DNA of 25,146 nucleotides. It comes from a virus. Positions 207 through 16,345 of the stretch are shown one piece after another. The position numbers and the translations under genes were made by a program. The stretch is from positions 1 to 25,146 of the IMG/VR virus record IMGVR_UViG_3300018481_000070, one strand, 5' to 3'. Position 1 is the first letter of the stretch. Every line of letters begins with the position of its first letter. A model generated the notes under the pieces. It was not told the origin of the DNA and ran no database searches. It saw only the letters and a program-made list of their open reading frames with translations.

Positions 207-476
207 TTAGAGCTTAGAAGGGACACTAACGATATTGCCGATGCTCTTAACCTCAATTGAGGTATCCAAGCGTGGGCGATTCTGGCCGAATGCCGTCTTA
301 GCAGCATTCTTAGTTGGGGGTGCGATTACGCCAGTGAGTGTCACTGAGCGATCAGCCCCACGGTAGCGCCGCAATGCGCGCTCTTGCTTGCGGGTTAGTC
401 CCTTGCTACGGCGAGTGTTAGCAACTCGCTCAGTAGCAGCACGATCACTGAGCGTATCCATGCTTAGACGCTTCAC
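207..476 (-). CDS. Small basic hypothetical protein, 89 aa
   Basis: Leftward gene with a GTG start at 476-474 preceded by AGGAAGGGG about 5 nt upstream, a strong ribosome site. An in-frame ATG at 461-459 is a weaker alternative. The protein is strongly basic, with many Arg and Lys residues, including the KQERALRRYRGADR stretch near residues 30-43, and has no membrane segment. Such composition fits a nucleic-acid-binding or structural accessory protein, but I recognise no family and assign no function. It sits upstream of the 54-aa gene in what looks like a two-gene leftward unit whose promoter would lie in the 477-830 region. Confidence 0.6.
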   Translation of the reverse strand: MKRLSMDTLSDRAATERVANTRRSKGLTRKQERALRRYRGADRSVTLTGVIAPPTKNAAKTAFGQNRPRLDTSIEVKSIGNIVSVPSKL

Positions 477-505
477 TGTATCCCCTTCCTAGTCTTAGCT
501 TGACG

Positions 506-654
506 TACCCTGCACTAGCCTCACTTCACTGCGCGTATCGCCGATAAGCGGGTTAGGACACTGTGCCGCGCATACCCCTAGGGTCTAAGCGGGTATACAC
601 TAACCGCCACTGTGCCAGTGTGACGCGGTGCGTGAGTGAGGCTAGTGCAGGGTA
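506..654. repeat. Perfect 19-bp inverted repeat with 111-bp spacer
   Basis: The left arm taccctgcactagcctcac (506-524) is matched exactly by gtgaggctagtgcagggta (636-654). A second pair, agtcttagc (491-499) and gctaagact (672-680), flanks it in the same nested order, so 491-680 could fold as one long interrupted hairpin or act as paired protein-binding sites. Confidence 0.8.
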
Positions 655-700
655 GGCGTACTCACTACCCTGCTAAGACTGTCCTACGTTCAGTGTGGCG

Positions 701-720
701 CTACCCCGCACTAGGGGTAG
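701..720. repeat. 7-bp hairpin ctacccc/ggggtag
   Basis: The sequence ctaccccgcactaggggtag forms a perfect 7-bp stem with a 6-nt loop and is followed by tcccttt. It may be a weak terminator or part of the larger structured region. No gene ends just before it on the plus strand, which argues against a simple terminator role. Confidence 0.5.
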
Positions 721-740
721 TCCCTTTGTCCAGTCTCCCC

Positions 741-813
741 GTACCTAGGTGCGACGCTTGCGAGAGAGGTAGCTATGCGAGAGACGGCTTGCGCTCCGCA
801 CCTAGCTAGGTAC
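741..813. repeat. Imperfect inverted repeat around cctagg
   Basis: gtacctaggtgcg (741-753) faces cgcacctagctaggtac (797-813); the arms match except for an extra ctag in the right arm. Between them are two near-direct copies of a gcttgcgagag-like string (about 756 and 772). Confidence 0.55.
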
Positions 814-845
814 TTAGAGTGACGTAGCCTTGCGACTGTCAACCC

Positions 846-957
846 TGCCTAGACCATGGTGGCTCTACTGCTAACCCTCCCGGTTGCGAAACAGCATCCG
901 GGGGAACCTTTGAACGCGCATTCTCCTCACCACCCTAGGCAACCTTATGAGTTGCCT
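846..957. repeat. Tandem hairpins in non-coding region
   Basis: Several stems lie in a row: tgcctag (846-852) with ctaggca (935-941), cccgg (879-883) with ccggg (898-902), and aggcaac (937-943) with gttgcct (951-957, 7-nt loop). The first and third stems share bases 937-941 and so exclude one another. The density suggests a structured RNA or a packaging/regulatory site rather than coding sequence. Confidence 0.5.
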
Positions 958-1241
958 ACTGCTCGGACGGCTTCCGGCTGTCAAACACTGCTCGCCGTGG
1001 CTCTTGCGCGTGACGCTCCTAACGTCTTCCTTCTGCGGTGAGTGTGGTCTAGTCCTGCTACCTGCCTCCGGGGGGATTGGCTACCTCCCGCGAGCCGCTG
1101 ACACTCTGCCGCTTCCGGCTTCACCTGCGACGCTTACCGAAACTCCGCGTCTCCCGGTGACTGAACACGAGGGACTGTAGTTGCGCTATCCGAACGAAGT
1201 GGGCGATCGTCCCCTCGTATCTCCATAATCGAAATCGGTAA

Positions 1242-1257
1242 GTTAGTGCTCACTAAC
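1242..1257. promoter_or_regulatory. Operator-like palindrome gttagtg-ct-cactaac
   Basis: A 7-bp inverted repeat with a 2-bp centre, 64 bp before the first rightward virion gene. A possible -10 hexamer tatact is at 1285-1290 with no good -35 at the usual spacing, so the palindrome could be a repressor or activator site for a late promoter. Location and symmetry are the only evidence. Confidence 0.4.
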
Positions 1258-1320
1258 CTGTTATCCCTACGCCTGCACGTCATCTATACTGCGATTCGAC
1301 ACAGGAGGTACAGTAGCACT

Positions 1321-1731
1321 ATGGATGATAAGAGTCAAGACGAGTCTAACGATAAACACGTTGGCGACGCATTCAGCATTGACCCAACACCTAATGGGCC
1401 GGATAAAGAGGTAAACGAACGTCAACTACAGCAGACTCTAAAGAACTATCAGAAAGCAATGGAAGAAGAGTGGGAAACGAACGAGAAGTATCAAGACGGT
1501 AAATTAACGCCAGTAGAAATTCGTGAAAAGACTAAAGAACTATTAACTGGTGCCGTACCTAAAGCAGTAGCAGTAATGCTACATATTGCACAACACGGTT
1601 CCAGTGAAGCTAATCGACTTAAGGCTGCTCAGTACATCATCGACAAGGCCGTTGGTAAGGAGATTGGCGCGCTAGTTGGCGATCCTCTAGAAGCACTCCT
1701 CCACGGTATGAATGAAGCTGAGAAGAAGTGA
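1321..1731 (+). CDS. Putative terminase small subunit, 136 aa
   Basis: The ATG at 1321 is chosen because AGGAGGT lies 11 nt upstream; an in-frame GTG at 1246 has no such site and falls inside the operator-like palindrome. The first 45 residues are acidic and polar. Residues about 65-120 form a helical segment (AVPKAVAVMLHIAQHG, then ANRLKAAQYIIDKAVGK) of the kind found in phage small terminase subunits, with a helix-loop-helix ending in an ILDxxxGK-like element. The small subunit recognises the packaging site and recruits the large subunit to phage DNA. It is the first gene of the rightward unit and overlaps the next by GTGA. The large subunit is far away (9475), so the call stays tentative; another DNA-binding or virion protein is possible. 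Confidence 0.5.
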   Translation: MDDKSQDESNDKHVGDAFSIDPTPNGPDKEVNERQLQQTLKNYQKAMEEEWETNEKYQDGKLTPVEIREKTKELLTGAVPKAVAVMLHIAQHGSSEANRLKAAQYIIDKAVGKEIGALVGDPLEALLHGMNEAEKK

Positions 1732-2168
1732 GTAACGTAGTAGCCCAAAACAGCTTTGTCCTTACAGGAGCGGCTGTAGGGCTAGACGCACTAACCAATC
1801 TAAGGTTTCTGCCTCACCGACCCTTTACAGGTTGTTGCATCTGTGGAGAGGTCTTTCAGAGTGAAGCAGACAGGTTTCCTAGTGACGTATTCCAGGCTAA
1901 TCCAAGGCAATTCGACTTTAAGCCTGACAACGTTACACTCTACGCTCTAGGTATGAGAAAAGAGTGGAGCCACAAACACGCTAAAACACACTCCCAACGC
2001 CAACACGACCTATTAGCGTCTAGTGGGCATTGGGCTACACCTGAAGCTGTAGTTAAACTAGTGGCTTATGGCGTAGTTAATCTCGGCGATGGTTTAATCA
2101 ACGATGAACACGAAATGGCATTAAAGGAGTCAAGTCCCATTCCAACCGACGACGTGGAAGGTACTTAA
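1728..2168 (+). CDS. Hypothetical protein with putative zinc-binding residues, 146 aa
   Basis: GTG start overlapping the preceding stop by 4 nt (GTGA), which suggests translational coupling. The protein carries a Cys pair in TGCCICGEVF (C36/C37 and C39) and a His cluster in WSHKHAKTHSQRQH (H83, H85, H89, H94), a layout compatible with one zinc site joining a knuckle to a helix. The C-terminus (about 125-146) is acidic. I do not recognise the family. Location between a terminase-small-like gene and virion genes fits a packaging accessory or minor structural role, but that is only context. Confidence 0.75.
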   Translation: MSNVVAQNSFVLTGAAVGLDALTNLRFLPHRPFTGCCICGEVFQSEADRFPSDVFQANPRQFDFKPDNVTLYALGMRKEWSHKHAKTHSQRQHDLLASSGHWATPEAVVKLVAYGVVNLGDGLINDEHEMALKESSPIPTDDVEGT

Positions 2169-2567
2169 ATGTATGAGGTAATTTGGGAGGACGGTTCGCA
2201 CTCACTAGCGAACTATGAGGATGACGAAGTTATGAAGGCAACTGTACTAGGCCACCATAACCGAGCTAAAGATGGTGAAGCCGGTGGTCCAGCAGGTCAG
2301 CCCGCAGGTCGTATCGTTAAAGTACTAAAGTACGATAGTGACCCCGCCGACTCTATGGATGCTTTAAGCGTAGATGAGGCAAAGGCCGCACTAAGTGATG
2401 CGATTGATGCGGCGGCAGACGAAAATGGTGTACTAGACCTAGCAGTTCTGCCTAACTTGGTTAGTGCGCTACGCACTTCACAGGTATCCAGCGGCCCACA
2501 CGAAAGTAACTACAAGATGGAAGCCGTTGAAGAATTTTCCATTGACGATCTAGAGGGTGGTAAGTAA
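2169..2567 (+). CDS. Acidic hypothetical protein, 132 aa
   Basis: ATG immediately follows the previous stop; GGAAGGT about 6 nt upstream is the ribosome site. The protein is acidic. Residues 1-55 look like a small beta domain beginning MYEVIWEDGSHSLANYEDD with a Gly/Pro-rich loop (GEAGGPAGQPAG). Residues 60-105 are helical and Ala-rich (SVDEAKAALSDAIDAAADENG), and the tail ends EEFSIDDLEGGK. No family is recognised. It overlaps the next gene by one base (TAATG). Confidence 0.75.
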   Translation: MYEVIWEDGSHSLANYEDDEVMKATVLGHHNRAKDGEAGGPAGQPAGRIVKVLKYDSDPADSMDALSVDEAKAALSDAIDAAADENGVLDLAVLPNLVSALRTSQVSSGPHESNYKMEAVEEFSIDDLEGGK

Positions 2568-3127
2568 TGTATGAGCCTGGTATCCACCTTCACCACTCCG
2601 ATTACCCCTGTGGGGACTTTGAAGCGCAGCGCGTACACGGTGCTGTCATTGTCTTTCAGCGGTTCTCACAGCTATTTACGGACTACGTACTAGGAGCTTC
2701 AGGATCAATTACGCCTCCTACTGACTGGCGTGTAGGACTTGCGACTCTAGCAGTAAGCACTATGGCTCGTAACTCCGTACTGTCACCTACGGTTACAGGT
2801 ACGAACGTCAACGAGCTAGGTAGCTCAACGGCTAACGGTTACGCTAGAGGTACAATCGCTAAGTCGATTAACACAGGCTCAGTAGACTGGGGAACTTCAA
2901 CGTTCGACAACACCCTTTCTACGGGTGGTCAGTCAACAGCAGCAGATCAAGTTACGATTGGACCGTTCTCCGGTGCGCCTTCACCTAACGGTGCAGATAG
3001 TTGGTTCATTGCGGAAGCCGGTACGATCAACGCAGGTAACTTGCATTGTGCAGGAGATACTGCCGCAGAACGTACCTTCGCTAACCTAGATACAGAGAAG
3101 GTCACGATCACAATTAAGGCTGGTTAA
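2567..3127 (+). CDS. Putative beta-rich virion protein, 186 aa
   Basis: ATG at 2567 shares its A with the previous stop. After about 35 residues, the protein is rich in Ser, Thr, Gly and Asn, as in phage surface beta-sandwich proteins. The middle has alternating strand-like segments (WRVGLATLAVSTMARNS, GYARGTIAKSINTG), and the C-terminal half (DQVTIGPFSGA, SWFIAEAGT, RTFANLDTEKVTITIKAG) resembles a jelly-roll decoration or minor tail protein seen in environmental siphoviruses. A small tail or baseplate-associated protein is the best guess. It is followed directly by a hairpin terminator, so it ends the first transcription block. Confidence 0.7.
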   Translation: MYEPGIHLHHSDYPCGDFEAQRVHGAVIVFQRFSQLFTDYVLGASGSITPPTDWRVGLATLAVSTMARNSVLSPTVTGTNVNELGSSTANGYARGTIAKSINTGSVDWGTSTFDNTLSTGGQSTAADQVTIGPFSGAPSPNGADSWFIAEAGTINAGNLHCAGDTAAERTFANLDTEKVTITIKAG

Positions 3128-3141
3128 CTCAGCGCCCACAG

Positions 3142-3190
3142 TAGCCCCCTAGTCCTAGCTTGGAAGCGGTTAGGCTAGGGGGCTAATTTT
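3142..3190 (+). terminator. Rho-independent terminator
   Basis: tagccccctag (3142-3152) pairs exactly with ctagggggcta (3175-3185); the stem extends by a few more pairs with a one-base bulge. The right arm is followed by ATTTT (3186-3190). It lies 15 nt after the stop of the 186-aa gene. The ribosome site of the next gene (AGGAG, 3191) starts straight after it, so it may attenuate rather than fully stop transcription. Confidence 0.75.
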
Positions 3191-3199
3191 AGGAGTAAA

Positions 3200-3628
3200 A
3201 TGGCCCGTACAGGAATTGATGTTACGGTTGCTGCTAGCCCTAATGGTAAAGTATCAGCCAGGGACGTTAAAACGTCCGGCGATCCTGTATGGCAGCAGCA
3301 CGTACAACAAGTAGAAGCAGGTTATGACGCACTAGACCATGTAGGTCCAACAACGGTTGATGCTACAGCAGGTGGAATAGCACTTCCCTCAGTACATGCA
3401 GATGCAGAGTACGCACTAATTAGCGTTGAGACGGCTCCACTACGTTGGAGCGATATTGAGGCTCCTACCTCATCTAACGGTCATCTACTAGTACCGCCAG
3501 CGAGTGATGCGGTCTACTATTGGGTAGCAGGTAGATCGCGTCTAACCTCTTTTAAGATGATCCGCACAACTGGCGTATCAGCAAGCATTCAGGTTACGTA
3601 CTACAAGGCAAGATTCCCTGATGCTTAG
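3200..3628 (+). CDS. Putative small virion protein, 142 aa
   Basis: ATG at 3200 is preceded by AGGAG with 4 nt spacing. The protein is predicted to be mostly beta strand: a short polar N-terminus, then segments such as DATAGGIALPSV, EYALISVETAPLRW, VYYWVAGRSRLTSFKMIR and SIQVTYYKARF. It looks like a compact beta-sandwich of the kind that caps or decorates phage virions. No catalytic motif is seen. It is the first gene after the terminator, and its last 8 nt overlap the beta-helix gene, so it belongs to the adhesion cassette. Confidence 0.7.
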   Translation: MARTGIDVTVAASPNGKVSARDVKTSGDPVWQQHVQQVEAGYDALDHVGPTTVDATAGGIALPSVHADAEYALISVETAPLRWSDIEAPTSSNGHLLVPPASDAVYYWVAGRSRLTSFKMIRTTGVSASIQVTYYKARFPDA

Positions 3629-5009
3629 TCTTGATTTACCACTACCACGTCACTGGCTACTAACAGGTAGTCCATACAAGAAGGTACTAGCTACCGCAGC
3701 TACAGGAGCAGCAGTACTAGGACTAGGCTATGGCGGCTTCGTAGCTACTACAGGAAATGGCGGCGGGGCACCAGAAGGTACTGCACACGTATGGGTAGAT
3801 ACAAATGGCGGCTCATGTACTAATACCGGCTCTGCCGTTGCGTACAATGATGCTACAGCCTGTGGGAGCTTTGATGCCGCATGGGACGCAATGAGCAATG
3901 GGCAAACAGCGCGAATCGTAAATGGTACATATGGGCAACAGTTCATTACTGGTGATAAGACCGCACCTGGCGCTAAACTAATTGGAGAGTCTAAAGCCGG
4001 CGTTCGGATTGAAGATACAATCACTGAAGAGTGTTATGCAGCTTTCGGTGCAGGTACTCTACTATGTCCAGACGCTAACTACACATGGATTGAAAACGTC
4101 ACAGTAGATACTAATGAAGAAGATGGCCCCTCGCCGGGATCACTTATTGCTGGTCAGAACGTTACCTACAAGAACGTGGATATCTTTGGTTGGTGGCCTG
4201 ATATTTCCGTAGGCAGTACAGTTGCGGAATGTACTGGTTGCGACGGTACTAACTTTACATGGGATGGTGGTACTTGGGGTGATCCTGCACCACCACCACG
4301 TAACTGTGGTGCTGAGCCTGGTGGTAATGGTGAACCAGTTTGGATCTACTTCCCTGGTGCTACTATTAACGGCATTACATTCAATCCACAGACGGTCGAT
4401 CTAGAAGAGCCTGAAGGTCCATGTGCGCCGGACGATAATGCACATCTAGAGTATCTACGTCTAGAGTCTGCTGCTGATAACGTAACCTATAGCAATAATA
4501 CTTTCGTACCCGGTGCTGCTTCAGGCTCAGGCTATATCTTCTTCTCAGTTGCTACCGTTGATAACTTCAAGATCATCGGTAACTACTTTGCGGACAATAA
4601 TGCCTCTACATGGATTCAGGCAGGATCATGTACCGACAGTACAGTTATCGCATATAACACCTTCGATCCTACTGGTGATGATGGTGCTAACTTAGGATGC
4701 GATGCTACGTGGGTAGGCAATGTTGGGCCTAACTTCCAAGGCGCTGGAAACTGTGCCGATCATATTAAGAACGTATGGAGTGGTTCAGGATCATGTGGTA
4801 CTGATACTTTCGTAGGAGCTACGAGTCTCGGAATTGATCCTGACGACGGTACTATCACTAGTAGTTCACCGGCTTTCAATGCAGCAGAAACTCCTGGTGC
4901 TTCCGATTACTGTACTGATTCAGCCTACGTTAACTCAATTGATCGTTACGGCACAGAAAGACCACAGGACACAATTTGCGATGCAGGATCGTTTGAGGTT
5001 ATTCCATGA
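3621..5009 (+). CDS. Membrane-anchored right-handed beta-helix protein, 462 aa
   Basis: ATG at 3621 overlaps the preceding gene by 8 nt. Residues about 21-45 (KKVLATAATGAAVLGLGYGG) form a hydrophobic, possibly membrane-spanning segment after a short positive N-terminus. From about residue 55 the protein reads as a secreted parallel beta-helix: HVWVDTNGGSCTNTG, then repeated strand-turn units (TWIENVTVDTN, NVTYKNVDIFG, NVTYSNNTF, NFKIIGNYF, STVIAYNTF), ending in a GTERPQDTICDAGSFE motif typical of polysaccharide-lyase-like helices. It is unusually rich in Cys for a phage protein, suggesting disulphides outside the cell. Probable role: tail spike or virion depolymerase/adhesin binding surface glycan. 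No catalytic residues can be assigned. The hydrophobic N-terminus is odd for a virion protein and might anchor it in a membrane or in the particle. Confidence 0.75.
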   Translation: MLSLDLPLPRHWLLTGSPYKKVLATAATGAAVLGLGYGGFVATTGNGGGAPEGTAHVWVDTNGGSCTNTGSAVAYNDATACGSFDAAWDAMSNGQTARIVNGTYGQQFITGDKTAPGAKLIGESKAGVRIEDTITEECYAAFGAGTLLCPDANYTWIENVTVDTNEEDGPSPGSLIAGQNVTYKNVDIFGWWPDISVGSTVAECTGCDGTNFTWDGGTWGDPAPPPRNCGAEPGGNGEPVWIYFPGATINGITFNPQTVDLEEPEGPCAPDDNAHLEYLRLESAADNVTYSNNTFVPGAASGSGYIFFSVATVDNFKIIGNYFADNNASTWIQAGSCTDSTVIAYNTFDPTGDDGANLGCDATWVGNVGPNFQGAGNCADHIKNVWSGSGSCGTDTFVGATSLGIDPDDGTITSSSPAFNAAETPGASDYCTDSAYVNSIDRYGTERPQDTICDAGSFEVIP

Positions 5010-6130
5010 GTAGAGAGTTTAACAACGGTGTAACTACCGACCTAATGACTTACGCCTTAAGTGCGGGCGTAGGTCCAGAAAACTTCGTATACGGAACACA
5101 GCTAGTACTAGTTCGTATTATGGCGGCAAACGATACGTGGGTTTCCATGATCGAAGGAAACCAGCCCACAACAGGCGAATATTTTGCAATAGGTCGTCGC
5201 CTTAATAACGGACTGTATACCAGCAATGGGGCTACTGTTCAAGATTCTAGTGAATCAGGTAGTGGTACGCCATTCACTATTACTAGTGCTGATAACTGGT
5301 CACTATATGTTCAAACCAAGGCGTCCGGAACCGTATCACCTACATATCATAAATACCCCGTAGGCGGTTCCAGAACTACCAATCAGATTACGGCTACGTT
5401 TGCTGACTCTGTCCCCAATGCTGTAAGTATTACTCTAGGTGGACCAGAAGATCCTGCTCACATCAGATTTGCAGTTGCCGCAGTTCTACATGGCATCGTC
5501 CTAACAGCTGGTCAAATTGACGCTATTATGGCTGCTCTGACTACACAGAGTATTTTAGACCTGTGTGATTCAAACAGTTGGGTAGTAGACGACTCTGATG
5601 GTTTCGCTAACAACCTAGCTAACAATCATTCACACCGTTCTGCAATTAACGGTACAACTGATAACGGCGATGATCCAGCAGGTTGGGTATACGGATTAGG
5701 TGCTTCATCACAAAAGGGTTATGCAGTAGCCGATAGCGTAGATAACGGTTGGACAGATCAGGCCGCTGGTACTTCGCTCGCAGCAGCTATTGATGAAACT
5801 TCTCCAAGCGATGCAGACTACATTCAGTCTCCGTTGTCACCATCTAACTCCGGTACTCGCATTAAAGCTTTCAATAGCCTAGTAACTCCACAATCGGGTA
5901 CACGTACTCTGCGTTGGCGTACAGCTAAAGATAGTGCAGCCGGCGCTACTATCAATATGACTATTAAACTGTATCAGGGTGGTGGAGACTCGTTAGGGGC
6001 TGGTACTCTTGTTGACTCTTTTAGCCGTAACGGTGTTAGTAATACTCCTACGACGTTTGACGAGACGGTTACGGGAACCATAACGGACTATGATGACCTC
6101 TACGTAGAGTTTTGGGCTAACCAGCCATAG
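5006..6130 (+). CDS. Two-domain beta virion protein, 374 aa
   Basis: ATGA overlap with the beta-helix gene. Residues about 15-185 look like a concanavalin/LamG-like sandwich (NFVYGTQLVLVRI, WVSMIEGNQPTTGEYFAIG, NWSLYVQTKASG, IRFAVAAVLHG). After a linker, residues about 260-374 match the repeated phage jelly-roll pattern that starts DETSPSDADYIQSP, continues with TLRWRTAKDSAAGATINM and ends in a DYDDLYVEFWANQ strand. Such domains occur in tail or neck fibres of environmental siphoviruses. Function is inferred as receptor binding or fibre attachment. No catalytic motif is seen. Confidence 0.75.
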   Translation: MSREFNNGVTTDLMTYALSAGVGPENFVYGTQLVLVRIMAANDTWVSMIEGNQPTTGEYFAIGRRLNNGLYTSNGATVQDSSESGSGTPFTITSADNWSLYVQTKASGTVSPTYHKYPVGGSRTTNQITATFADSVPNAVSITLGGPEDPAHIRFAVAAVLHGIVLTAGQIDAIMAALTTQSILDLCDSNSWVVDDSDGFANNLANNHSHRSAINGTTDNGDDPAGWVYGLGASSQKGYAVADSVDNGWTDQAAGTSLAAAIDETSPSDADYIQSPLSPSNSGTRIKAFNSLVTPQSGTRTLRWRTAKDSAAGATINMTIKLYQGGGDSLGAGTLVDSFSRNGVSNTPTTFDETVTGTITDYDDLYVEFWANQP

Positions 6131-9178: not shown

Positions 9179-9475
9179 ATGCCAACTTTACCACAAGGAA
9201 CCAAGGAATACCTAATGGTCGATGTTACGGATGAAACAGGTAATATCGTCAGCCTCGATACTTTAAGCCCAATGTATAAAGTGCTTAAGCCCGATGATAC
9301 CGATATGGTTGCGTGGACAGCCGCGCCTAATGTAGCTATGAAGATCAAGTGCATGATCGACACTAATACTCCTTCACTGTGGCCCGGTGCAGCCTATCGA
9401 ATCTACTGTAAATTTAGCGCAACGCCAGAACTACCGTGGATCGGTCCGTTCATCTTTGATGTAGAGGCTCCATAG
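9179..9475 (+). CDS. Small beta-sandwich virion protein, 98 aa
   Basis: ATG at 9179 directly after the fibre stop, with GGGAGG 6-7 nt upstream. The protein is about 98 residues and predicted to be mostly strands (EYLMVDVTDETGNIVSL, YKVLKPDDTDMVAW, MKIKCMID, YRIYCKFSATPELPWIGPFIF), like small Ig-like or fibre-attachment proteins. No catalytic residues. It overlaps the terminase start by one base (TAGTG). It probably acts with the fibre gene, for example as an attachment or capping protein, but that comes only from its position and size. Confidence 0.65.
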   Translation: MPTLPQGTKEYLMVDVTDETGNIVSLDTLSPMYKVLKPDDTDMVAWTAAPNVAMKIKCMIDTNTPSLWPGAAYRIYCKFSATPELPWIGPFIFDVEAP

Positions 9476-10869
9476 TGTTATCAGAGGCAGCCAAGCGGCA
9501 ACTCTTCAAGACGCTTAAGTACGAACCCCACAGTGAAGAACAGTGGGATTGCCACTTAAGCCCTGCAAGGTTCAAGATCCCCTGCTGTGGACGCCGTTGG
9601 GGTAAGACTACGTTCGGGGGTAATGAGTTAACCGCTGCTGCTCTAGAAACTGAGAACATCGACACTAGTGATCCTCCGGTCTATTGGATCGTAGGACCGA
9701 ACTACGCACTAGGAGAGAAGGAGTTTCGTGTCCTTTACACTAACCTCGTCAAGAAGTTGGGTTTGGGTAGCCGTATCAAAAAGCAGTACAATGTCAACCA
9801 GGGGCAAATGCGAATTGAAATGCCTTGGGGGACGGTCATTGAAGTTAAGTCAGCAGACAGAAAAGATGGTCTTGTCGGGGAAGGTCTGGATGGGGTGGTA
9901 ATGGCGGAAGCCGCAAAGCACGACAAGGATACGTGGGATATGTACGTTCGTCCTGCTTTGTCTGATCGTAGAGGTTGGGCTATCTTCCCAAGTACCCCAC
10001 AGGGTTATAACTGGTATCAGGGTATGTGGATGATGGGTCAGTTGCCGGACTTTCCTGAGTACGAGAGTTGGCGCTTACCCACATGGACGAATAAAGCAAG
10101 GTATCCAAAGGGTATGGAAGAAGAGGAAATGATTGAGCTTAAGCGCATCACTCCTGAAACTACGTGGCTACAGGAGTATGCTGCTGACTTCGTTGCATAC
10201 CAGGGTAAAATCTACACTGAGTTTATCCCCAAGATTCACATTAAGGAGATTCCCTACAATCCTGCATGGCGTAACTACCTAGTCTTCGACTATGGCTTTG
10301 CTGATCCATTTGTGTGTCTGGACATTATGGTCGATCCAAGCGATAACGTCTATGTTTGGCGTGAATACCAAGTTACCTCCATGAGTACGTGGGAGCATGG
10401 GCAGATCATCCGTAATAGAAAGAATCCACCTGGTTATCACATTGATGGTATGTTTGGCGATCCTCGTGGAGCAGACGAAGCAGCAACACTAGCACTCATT
10501 CTAGGTCCAGTATTAAGTGAACCTGTGGGATGGAAGTTAGGTATTGAGGCTGTTAAGGCTGGTCTTAAACTACAGCCTGATGGTCAGCCTAAGCTGTTTT
10601 TTGGACATACATGTGAACACTTGAATAGGCAGATGGAACGTCTACATTTCATTGATGTAAAGGAAGGCAAGAATCACAAAGAAATGCAACATGACTTTGA
10701 CGATCATGGTCCTGATGCATTACGTTACTTCTACAATCATATGTTTGTACTTGGTGTAGGGCCGCGCCTGTCCGACATTTACAATGCGGCCACATTCGGT
10801 TCGGAAGCTATGCAGTTCTTCACACAGGAAAGCATCATTACCAGGGATGAGAATAAGAGTTGGGTCTAA
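9475..10869 (+). CDS. terL: Terminase large subunit, 464 aa
   Basis: The DNA packaging motor: ATPase plus nuclease that drives DNA into the prohead and cuts it. GTG start at 9475 overlaps the previous stop; AGAGG precedes it. The ATPase has a Walker A-like CGRRWGKTT (38-46), a Walker B-like LDGVVMAEAA (138-147) where the usual Asp before the catalytic Glu is Ala (A144-E145), and a coupling motif PSTPQG (172-177). The RNase H-like nuclease has three acidic sites: FDYG (D272), FGDPRGADEA (D329) and DDHGPDALRYF (D409/D410, D414). Length fits the family. It overlaps the portal by 10 nt. It lies about 7.7 kb after the putative small subunit, an unusual separation. Confidence 0.95.
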   Translation: MLSEAAKRQLFKTLKYEPHSEEQWDCHLSPARFKIPCCGRRWGKTTFGGNELTAAALETENIDTSDPPVYWIVGPNYALGEKEFRVLYTNLVKKLGLGSRIKKQYNVNQGQMRIEMPWGTVIEVKSADRKDGLVGEGLDGVVMAEAAKHDKDTWDMYVRPALSDRRGWAIFPSTPQGYNWYQGMWMMGQLPDFPEYESWRLPTWTNKARYPKGMEEEEMIELKRITPETTWLQEYAADFVAYQGKIYTEFIPKIHIKEIPYNPAWRNYLVFDYGFADPFVCLDIMVDPSDNVYVWREYQVTSMSTWEHGQIIRNRKNPPGYHIDGMFGDPRGADEAATLALILGPVLSEPVGWKLGIEAVKAGLKLQPDGQPKLFFGHTCEHLNRQMERLHFIDVKEGKNHKEMQHDFDDHGPDALRYFYNHMFVLGVGPRLSDIYNAATFGSEAMQFFTQESIITRDENKSWV

Positions 10870-15880: not shown

Positions 15881-15895
15881 GGATTAGGAGAGAAC

Positions 15896-16345
15896 GTGCC
15901 GCTAACACAACCAATTGTAACTGATGCGGATATTCAGGTACACCTTCCGATTGATAAGTTCCTTATCACGGATTACCCGAATGATCTAGTAACGACAAAA
16001 CTAGATATCTCTCGCGTTATCTTTGGTCGTCTTAGTGGTACGTTCTCTCCCCTTACTCTAGCTTCATGGGCTGATCCCACAACTACACCTGAAACGATTA
16101 GAGCTATTGGTGGGCGTCTAGGCGCTGCACTAATGTACCGCAACAGGCTTGCAGAGGATTATCCAGAGGATGCCGATTACGCTCAATTGAAGTATCGTGA
16201 AGCAATGATGATGCTTGAAATGATCGTAAGTGGCGAAATGGTACTGCCTGAGGTTACAGAAGAAGTGAACACTGGACAGAGACTAAGCGAGAATCACTTT
16301 ACAGCATTGCCTGATCCTAAGTTCACTATGGATATGGAGTTCTAA
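15896..16345 (+). CDS. Putative head-tail connector protein, 149 aa
   Basis: GTG at 15896 preceded by AGGAGAG. The protein is mainly helical, starting with a conserved-looking VTDADIQVHLPIDKF stretch, then RAIGGRLGAALMYRNRLAEDYP and YREAMMMLEMIVSGEM. The size and place fit a connector or adaptor of the head completion family (gp6/gp15-like). It binds below the portal in such phages. It overlaps the next gene by one base. Confidence 0.7.
   Translation: MPLTQPIVTDADIQVHLPIDKFLITDYPNDLVTTKLDISRVIFGRLSGTFSPLTLASWADPTTTPETIRAIGGRLGAALMYRNRLAEDYPEDADYAQLKYREAMMMLEMIVSGEMVLPEVTEEVNTGQRLSENHFTALPDPKFTMDMEF

Follow-up and report, generated by a model that had tools for sequence, protein, structure and literature searches.

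In the cluster A mycobacteriophages L5, D29 and StarStuff, the Pleft promoter drives a stable and abundant noncoding RNA of ~500 nt, encoded in the gap that follows the promoter and precedes the first leftward gene, and this RNA region has no open reading frame over about 30 codons and displays considerable sequence divergence (PMC5712189). In L5 and D29, Pleft and its noncoding RNA are located at the extreme right end of the genome, and the start of late transcription lies about 230 bp inside the left end (PMC5712189). In this study, a 25,146-nucleotide stretch of DNA from an uncultivated phage (IMG/VR record IMGVR_UViG_3300018481_000070; hereafter the window) was analysed with respect to positions 477-1320, which are the junction between a leftward early arm and a rightward virion arm. 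By analogy with Pleft of L5 and D29, the best explanation, which we hold with about even confidence, is that a 60-bp element at 1166-1225 serves as a leftward promoter/operator and that the DNA inserted beyond it would be expressed as a long untranslated leader RNA.

The ~840 bases of the junction contain no credible genes, as the first-pass annotation had proposed. With a codon log-odds model trained on the genes of a relative, all six frames of 477-1320 scored negative and the flanking genes scored positive. The chance open reading frames at 856-1041 and 947-1180 had values of -0.22 and -0.34 per codon, respectively, and a coding reading of the region was ruled out by these scores together with a six-frame comparison with L001. 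The higher GC content relative to the genes was also confirmed (59.4% in 477-1165 vs 48% in 1321-6000). The tight gene packing against which the region had been judged conspicuous holds for the late arm of the window but not for the leftward arm of the closest relative, in which gaps of up to 1,074 nt are present. No Rfam family, including those of the large phage RNAs and tmRNA, matched the region at the gathering threshold, and only implausible matches appeared at E values up to 10; no tRNA or tmRNA was found in the window, and a comparison of positions 1-2400 with 50,697 phage records revealed no DNA similarity.

The first leftward gene (207-476, minus strand) encodes a small basic protein of 89 aa that has a positive codon score and no family match. 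Its start codon adjoins the noncoding region, with the Shine-Dalgarno-like sequence AGGAAGGGG upstream. The homolog in L001 shares 66% identity and lies on the same strand beside terS; moreover, a second related group of the small leftward gene occupies the equivalent place in L015, L017 and G005. The first gene on the virion side (1321-1731, plus strand) is similar to terminase small subunits (phrog_2538, E 2.9e-5; phrog_10899, E 1e-4) and is preceded by the Shine-Dalgarno sequence AGGAGG (1303-1308) and by a candidate rightward -10 hexamer, TATACT (1285-1290, plus strand), which aligned with TATACA in L001. To its right lie the virion genes, including those of the terminase large subunit (9475-10869, plus strand; Terminase_6N, 92% identity to L001), portal, protease and major head protein. 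The leftward arm of L001 encodes DNA polymerase, primase, helicase, exonuclease and a Sak4-like protein. With leftward genes of the early and replication kind on one side and virion genes headed by terS on the other, the region is therefore the point at which the two arms diverge. The normal Shine-Dalgarno sequence before terS in the window and L001 is unlike the situation in L006, L015, L017, G005 and L108, where a TANNNT hexamer lies 6-7 nt before the terS start codon without a clear Shine-Dalgarno sequence, which suggests that the terS transcript is leaderless in these five lineages.

Relatives were located by means of the terminase large subunit, and seven lineages (the window, L001, L006, L015, L017, G005 and L108) were aligned upstream of terS. 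L001, the nearest relative, is a contig of 57,437 bases whose identical 123-nt ends indicate a circular map; it was recognised as a relative among 43 contigs matched in a scan with TACCCTGCYAAGACT, has a syntenic noncoding gap of 797 nt and shares 71% DNA identity with the window in the terS region. A profile search with terS yielded no new relatives; that with terL yielded more distant ones, among them L108 as one added lineage. Another contig, L159 (JACCUI010000155.1; 13 kb), whose TerL is 56% identical to that of the window phage, is binned in a metagenome-assembled genome of Pyrinomonadaceae (Acidobacteriota), a weak hint at the host that is insufficient to name it.

On comparison with L001, the region divides in three: the local alignment z against shuffles was 12.6 for 1151-1320, which includes the 60-bp element; 6.4 for 477-685, which holds a long-stem hairpin; and 1.1 for the middle at 686-1150 (1.4 in global alignment), where conservation was undetectable. 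The first-pass annotation had offered a packaging site, an origin, a structured RNA or a control switch for transcription in the two directions. Of these, the divergent junction is supported by our data, and a specific cis element is present, although it resides in the 60 bp proximal to terS and not in the hairpin; structured RNA is supported for the hairpin at 477-685 and not for the 465-nt middle.

The junction element, which the earlier annotation had overlooked, is bipartite. Its consensus, AGGNACTNTA followed after 47 or 48 nt by TAYCTCCA, was present just upstream of terS in all seven lineages. In the window, it consists of motif A (AGGGACTGTA, 1170-1179) and motif B (TATCTCCA, 1218-1225), between which lies a partial dyad (GGGCGATCGTCCC, 1201-1213) around a GA that is fixed at -13/-12. 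Thirteen flank columns were identical in at least six of the seven lineages, compared with a mean of 0.5 and a maximum of 4 in 500 shuffles, a null that ignores shared ancestry. Furthermore, a pattern scan of 2.9 million viral contigs gave 13 matches, nine in family contigs and four elsewhere. The latter were chance-like: none had a convincing terS, gene-2 or small-gene neighbour, and in the two for which open reading frames were listed the match fell within a long open reading frame that belongs to another phage. The element was found at one place per genome.

A candidate leftward -10 hexamer, TACAGT, is located at 1174-1179 on the minus strand and would place the transcription start near 1167, with the centre of the dyad about 40 bp upstream. 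The start codon of the first leftward gene follows this predicted start at a distance of 56 nt in L006, 45 nt in L015 and 39 nt in G005, vs 691 nt in the window and 633 in L001, which shows that the extra DNA of the latter two sits on the side of the element facing that gene, ahead of its start codon. The occurrence of TANAGT in all seven lineages, the normal leader length in the lineages with short gaps and the position of the dyad together fit a leftward promoter accompanied by an activator or operator site. Since no -35 sequence was conserved and a consensus scan detected neither a full sigma-70 promoter nor an intrinsic terminator, promoter function is something that we infer; the direction of transcription and the stability and role of the RNA are likewise putative. 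In addition, the single copy per genome means that the element is not a reused promoter motif, which counts against the promoter reading. If this reading holds, TANAGT would be the minus-strand -10, and the promoter in the window phage and L001 would be separated from the first leftward gene by the insert of ~650 nt. Transcribed leftward, the insert would give rise to an untranslated leader or a separate noncoding RNA (477-1165, minus strand), and the RNA would end in the hairpin with the 20-bp stem just before the Shine-Dalgarno sequence. The recurrent 8-mers GTTARTGA and CCCCACAG, considered as promoter or operator sequences, were rejected, being mostly coding or scattered. A match of GTTATCCCTACGCC to G005, G008 and G009 was also set aside; it was weak (E 0.29-0.49) and lay inside another hairpin in G005 and G009.

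The same element might instead be a cos or pac site for the terminase encoded to its right, the dyad being the nicking site and the insert a spacer at the genome end, a possibility that is plausible from its position, although we hold it to be less likely. In lambda, cos lies 5' of terS, and the element is likewise immediately 5' of the TerS-like gene, occurs once per genome and is bipartite, with a partial dyad and fixed spacing. Moreover, Pleft and the noncoding RNA of L5 and D29 are also found at a genome end (PMC5712189). However, two relatives gave circular assemblies in which the overlap is 123 nt, no end of a family contig was seen within 100 bp of the element, and nine contigs besides the window cross it, although the ends of bulk metagenome assemblies are weak evidence either way.

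To return to the leftward promoter with its leader RNA, the insert of ~650 bases was found, among the lineages compared, in the window phage and L001 only; in L108, about 145 nt separate the element from the first leftward gene, as read from the sequence. The earlier argument that so costly a region must carry a function is thereby weakened: elsewhere in the family, 39 to about 145 nt suffice at this place. The middle of the insert is 465 nt long in the window vs 475 nt in L001, and its GC content is 60% in both. The plus strand of the middle has a pyrimidine excess (57-58%, z above 3 in both phages), and the minus strand of the insert is purine-rich (56% in both). This purine bias speaks for the leader reading, as do the conserved hairpin and the replication genes in the leftward arm of L001. 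No excess folding over shuffles was found in the 465 nt of the middle, and the fact that this part is neither detectably conserved nor unusually structured speaks against a leader RNA. It would agree with an insert that drifts without function, selection acting only on the hairpin base, the junction element and the terS promoter, and the absence of the insert from the other lineages points the same way. This reading is nevertheless improbable in our view, since length and skewed composition were kept in two phages whose terS regions share no more than the DNA identity given above, and phages tend to lose useless DNA. Both the neutral spacer and the replication origin considered below are less favoured than the leader RNA and the packaging site.

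The hairpin at the leftward end of the insert is the part in which structure was evident. The perfect inverted repeat reported by the first-pass annotation is present, but it measures 20 bp and not 19 (arms at 506-525 and 635-654, with a loop of 109 nt), a length reached in none of 60 dinucleotide shuffles of the region. The nested flanking repeats were recovered as well, with the outer pair AGTCTTAGC (491-499) and GCTAAGACT (672-680) enclosing the 20-bp stem to give a nested long-stem hairpin at 491-680. The full 844 nt folded better than shuffles, with a z of -5.2 on the plus strand and -3.0 on the minus strand, and the excess was confined to 481-680 (z -5.3/-6.5), the remaining 200-nt windows falling between about -1.9 and +1.7. 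The hairpin adjoins the first leftward gene and is kept in L001 with changes on both sides. The stem base, CTGCACTAG, is retained in the L001 counterpart except for one mismatch, and the next 7 bp are changed on both arms with pairing preserved (CCTCACT/AGTGAGG in the window, GCCGTAG/CTACGGC in L001). This two-sided change is a single observation, of one helix in two sequences, and could also have been produced by gene-conversion-like correction of quasi-palindromes. Consensus folding of the whole region from the two sequences gave z values between -1.3 and -2.4, but the underlying alignment was too divergent to be relied on. An assignment of the transcribed strand from wobble pairs, in which single cases favoured the minus strand, was dropped, because G.T and A.C mismatches, judged by eye, were about even across the hairpin family.

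Long-stem inverted repeats with arms of about 19-26 nt and loops of 38-121 nt were also observed in gaps of the leftward arms of G001, G004 (39319-39446, 40966-41061 and 41338-41440, for example), G005 and G009, and hardly in late arms. Their arms vary from copy to copy yet stay complementary, and they could represent signals for RNA processing, small RNAs or quasi-palindromes. In the window itself, an imperfect 28-nt inverted repeat with a 108-nt loop (15887-16050) spans the start of the gene at 15896-16345. Furthermore, L079 (IMGVR_UViG_3300049063_000008) encodes a tmRNA at 10359-10694 on the minus strand (Rfam RF00023, 85 bits, E 1.3e-31; ARAGORN tag GADNKCPDFIPDWVMDEVLVAV) within a 1.6-kb noncoding gap with several hairpins. 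Elements of 108-130 nt resembling tRNAs, with a 7-bp acceptor-type stem and a T-arm, occur in L077 (8745-8874, plus strand) and L079 (10806-10913, minus strand); ARAGORN did not call them as tRNAs. It is conceivable, although we consider it doubtful, that the insert represents a new class of phage noncoding RNA that the junction promoter expresses and that forms part of a larger group of hairpin RNAs with long stems in the untranslated leftward-arm gaps of this phage family, some members of which carry tmRNA or tRNA-like elements. A replication origin in which the hairpin would serve as a cruciform or primer structure is very unlikely: the cumulative GC-skew minimum coincides with or borders the junction in G001, G004 and G005, but skew is confounded by divergent gene orientation, the minimum of G009 is about 1 kb off, neither an AT-rich stretch nor an iteron array was noticed in the GC-rich insert, and similar hairpins occur at many other leftward gaps.

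If the reading as a leftward promoter with a long leader RNA is true, an early promoter of the L5 type followed by a long noncoding leader recurs in a family without detectable DNA similarity to L5, and such recurrence would suggest that junction RNAs have a general role as infection begins. The conserved 60-bp element provides a concrete handle on the question of promoter versus packaging site.

In comparison with known systems, the locus shares with the large ornate phage RNAs GOLLD and ROOL (PMC12286853) a noncoding stretch of several hundred nucleotides in a phage genome; unlike them, it has no Rfam match, and most of the stretch folds no better than shuffles. As in cos or pac sites of the lambda type beside terS, a conserved bipartite element with a partial dyad is placed directly upstream of a TerS-like gene, whereas the circular relatives, the lack of contig ends at the element and the lack of identified repeated TerS-type sites set it apart. 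The Pleft locus of L5, D29 and StarStuff differs from the present one in that promoter and RNA are here predicted, the insert was seen in only two lineages, a hairpin with a 20-bp stem precedes the first gene, and no DNA homology to the mycobacteriophage locus, or to any other of the phage records searched, was detected in positions 1-2400. In common with Pleft, an ORF-free stretch of several hundred nucleotides lies ahead of the first leftward gene where the leftward and virion arms meet, here beginning at the conserved element with its putative early promoter, and the sequence diverges strongly between relatives. The resemblance to L5 and D29 is thus one of arrangement, with no kinship implied, and this arrangement is already known from mycobacteriophage L5.
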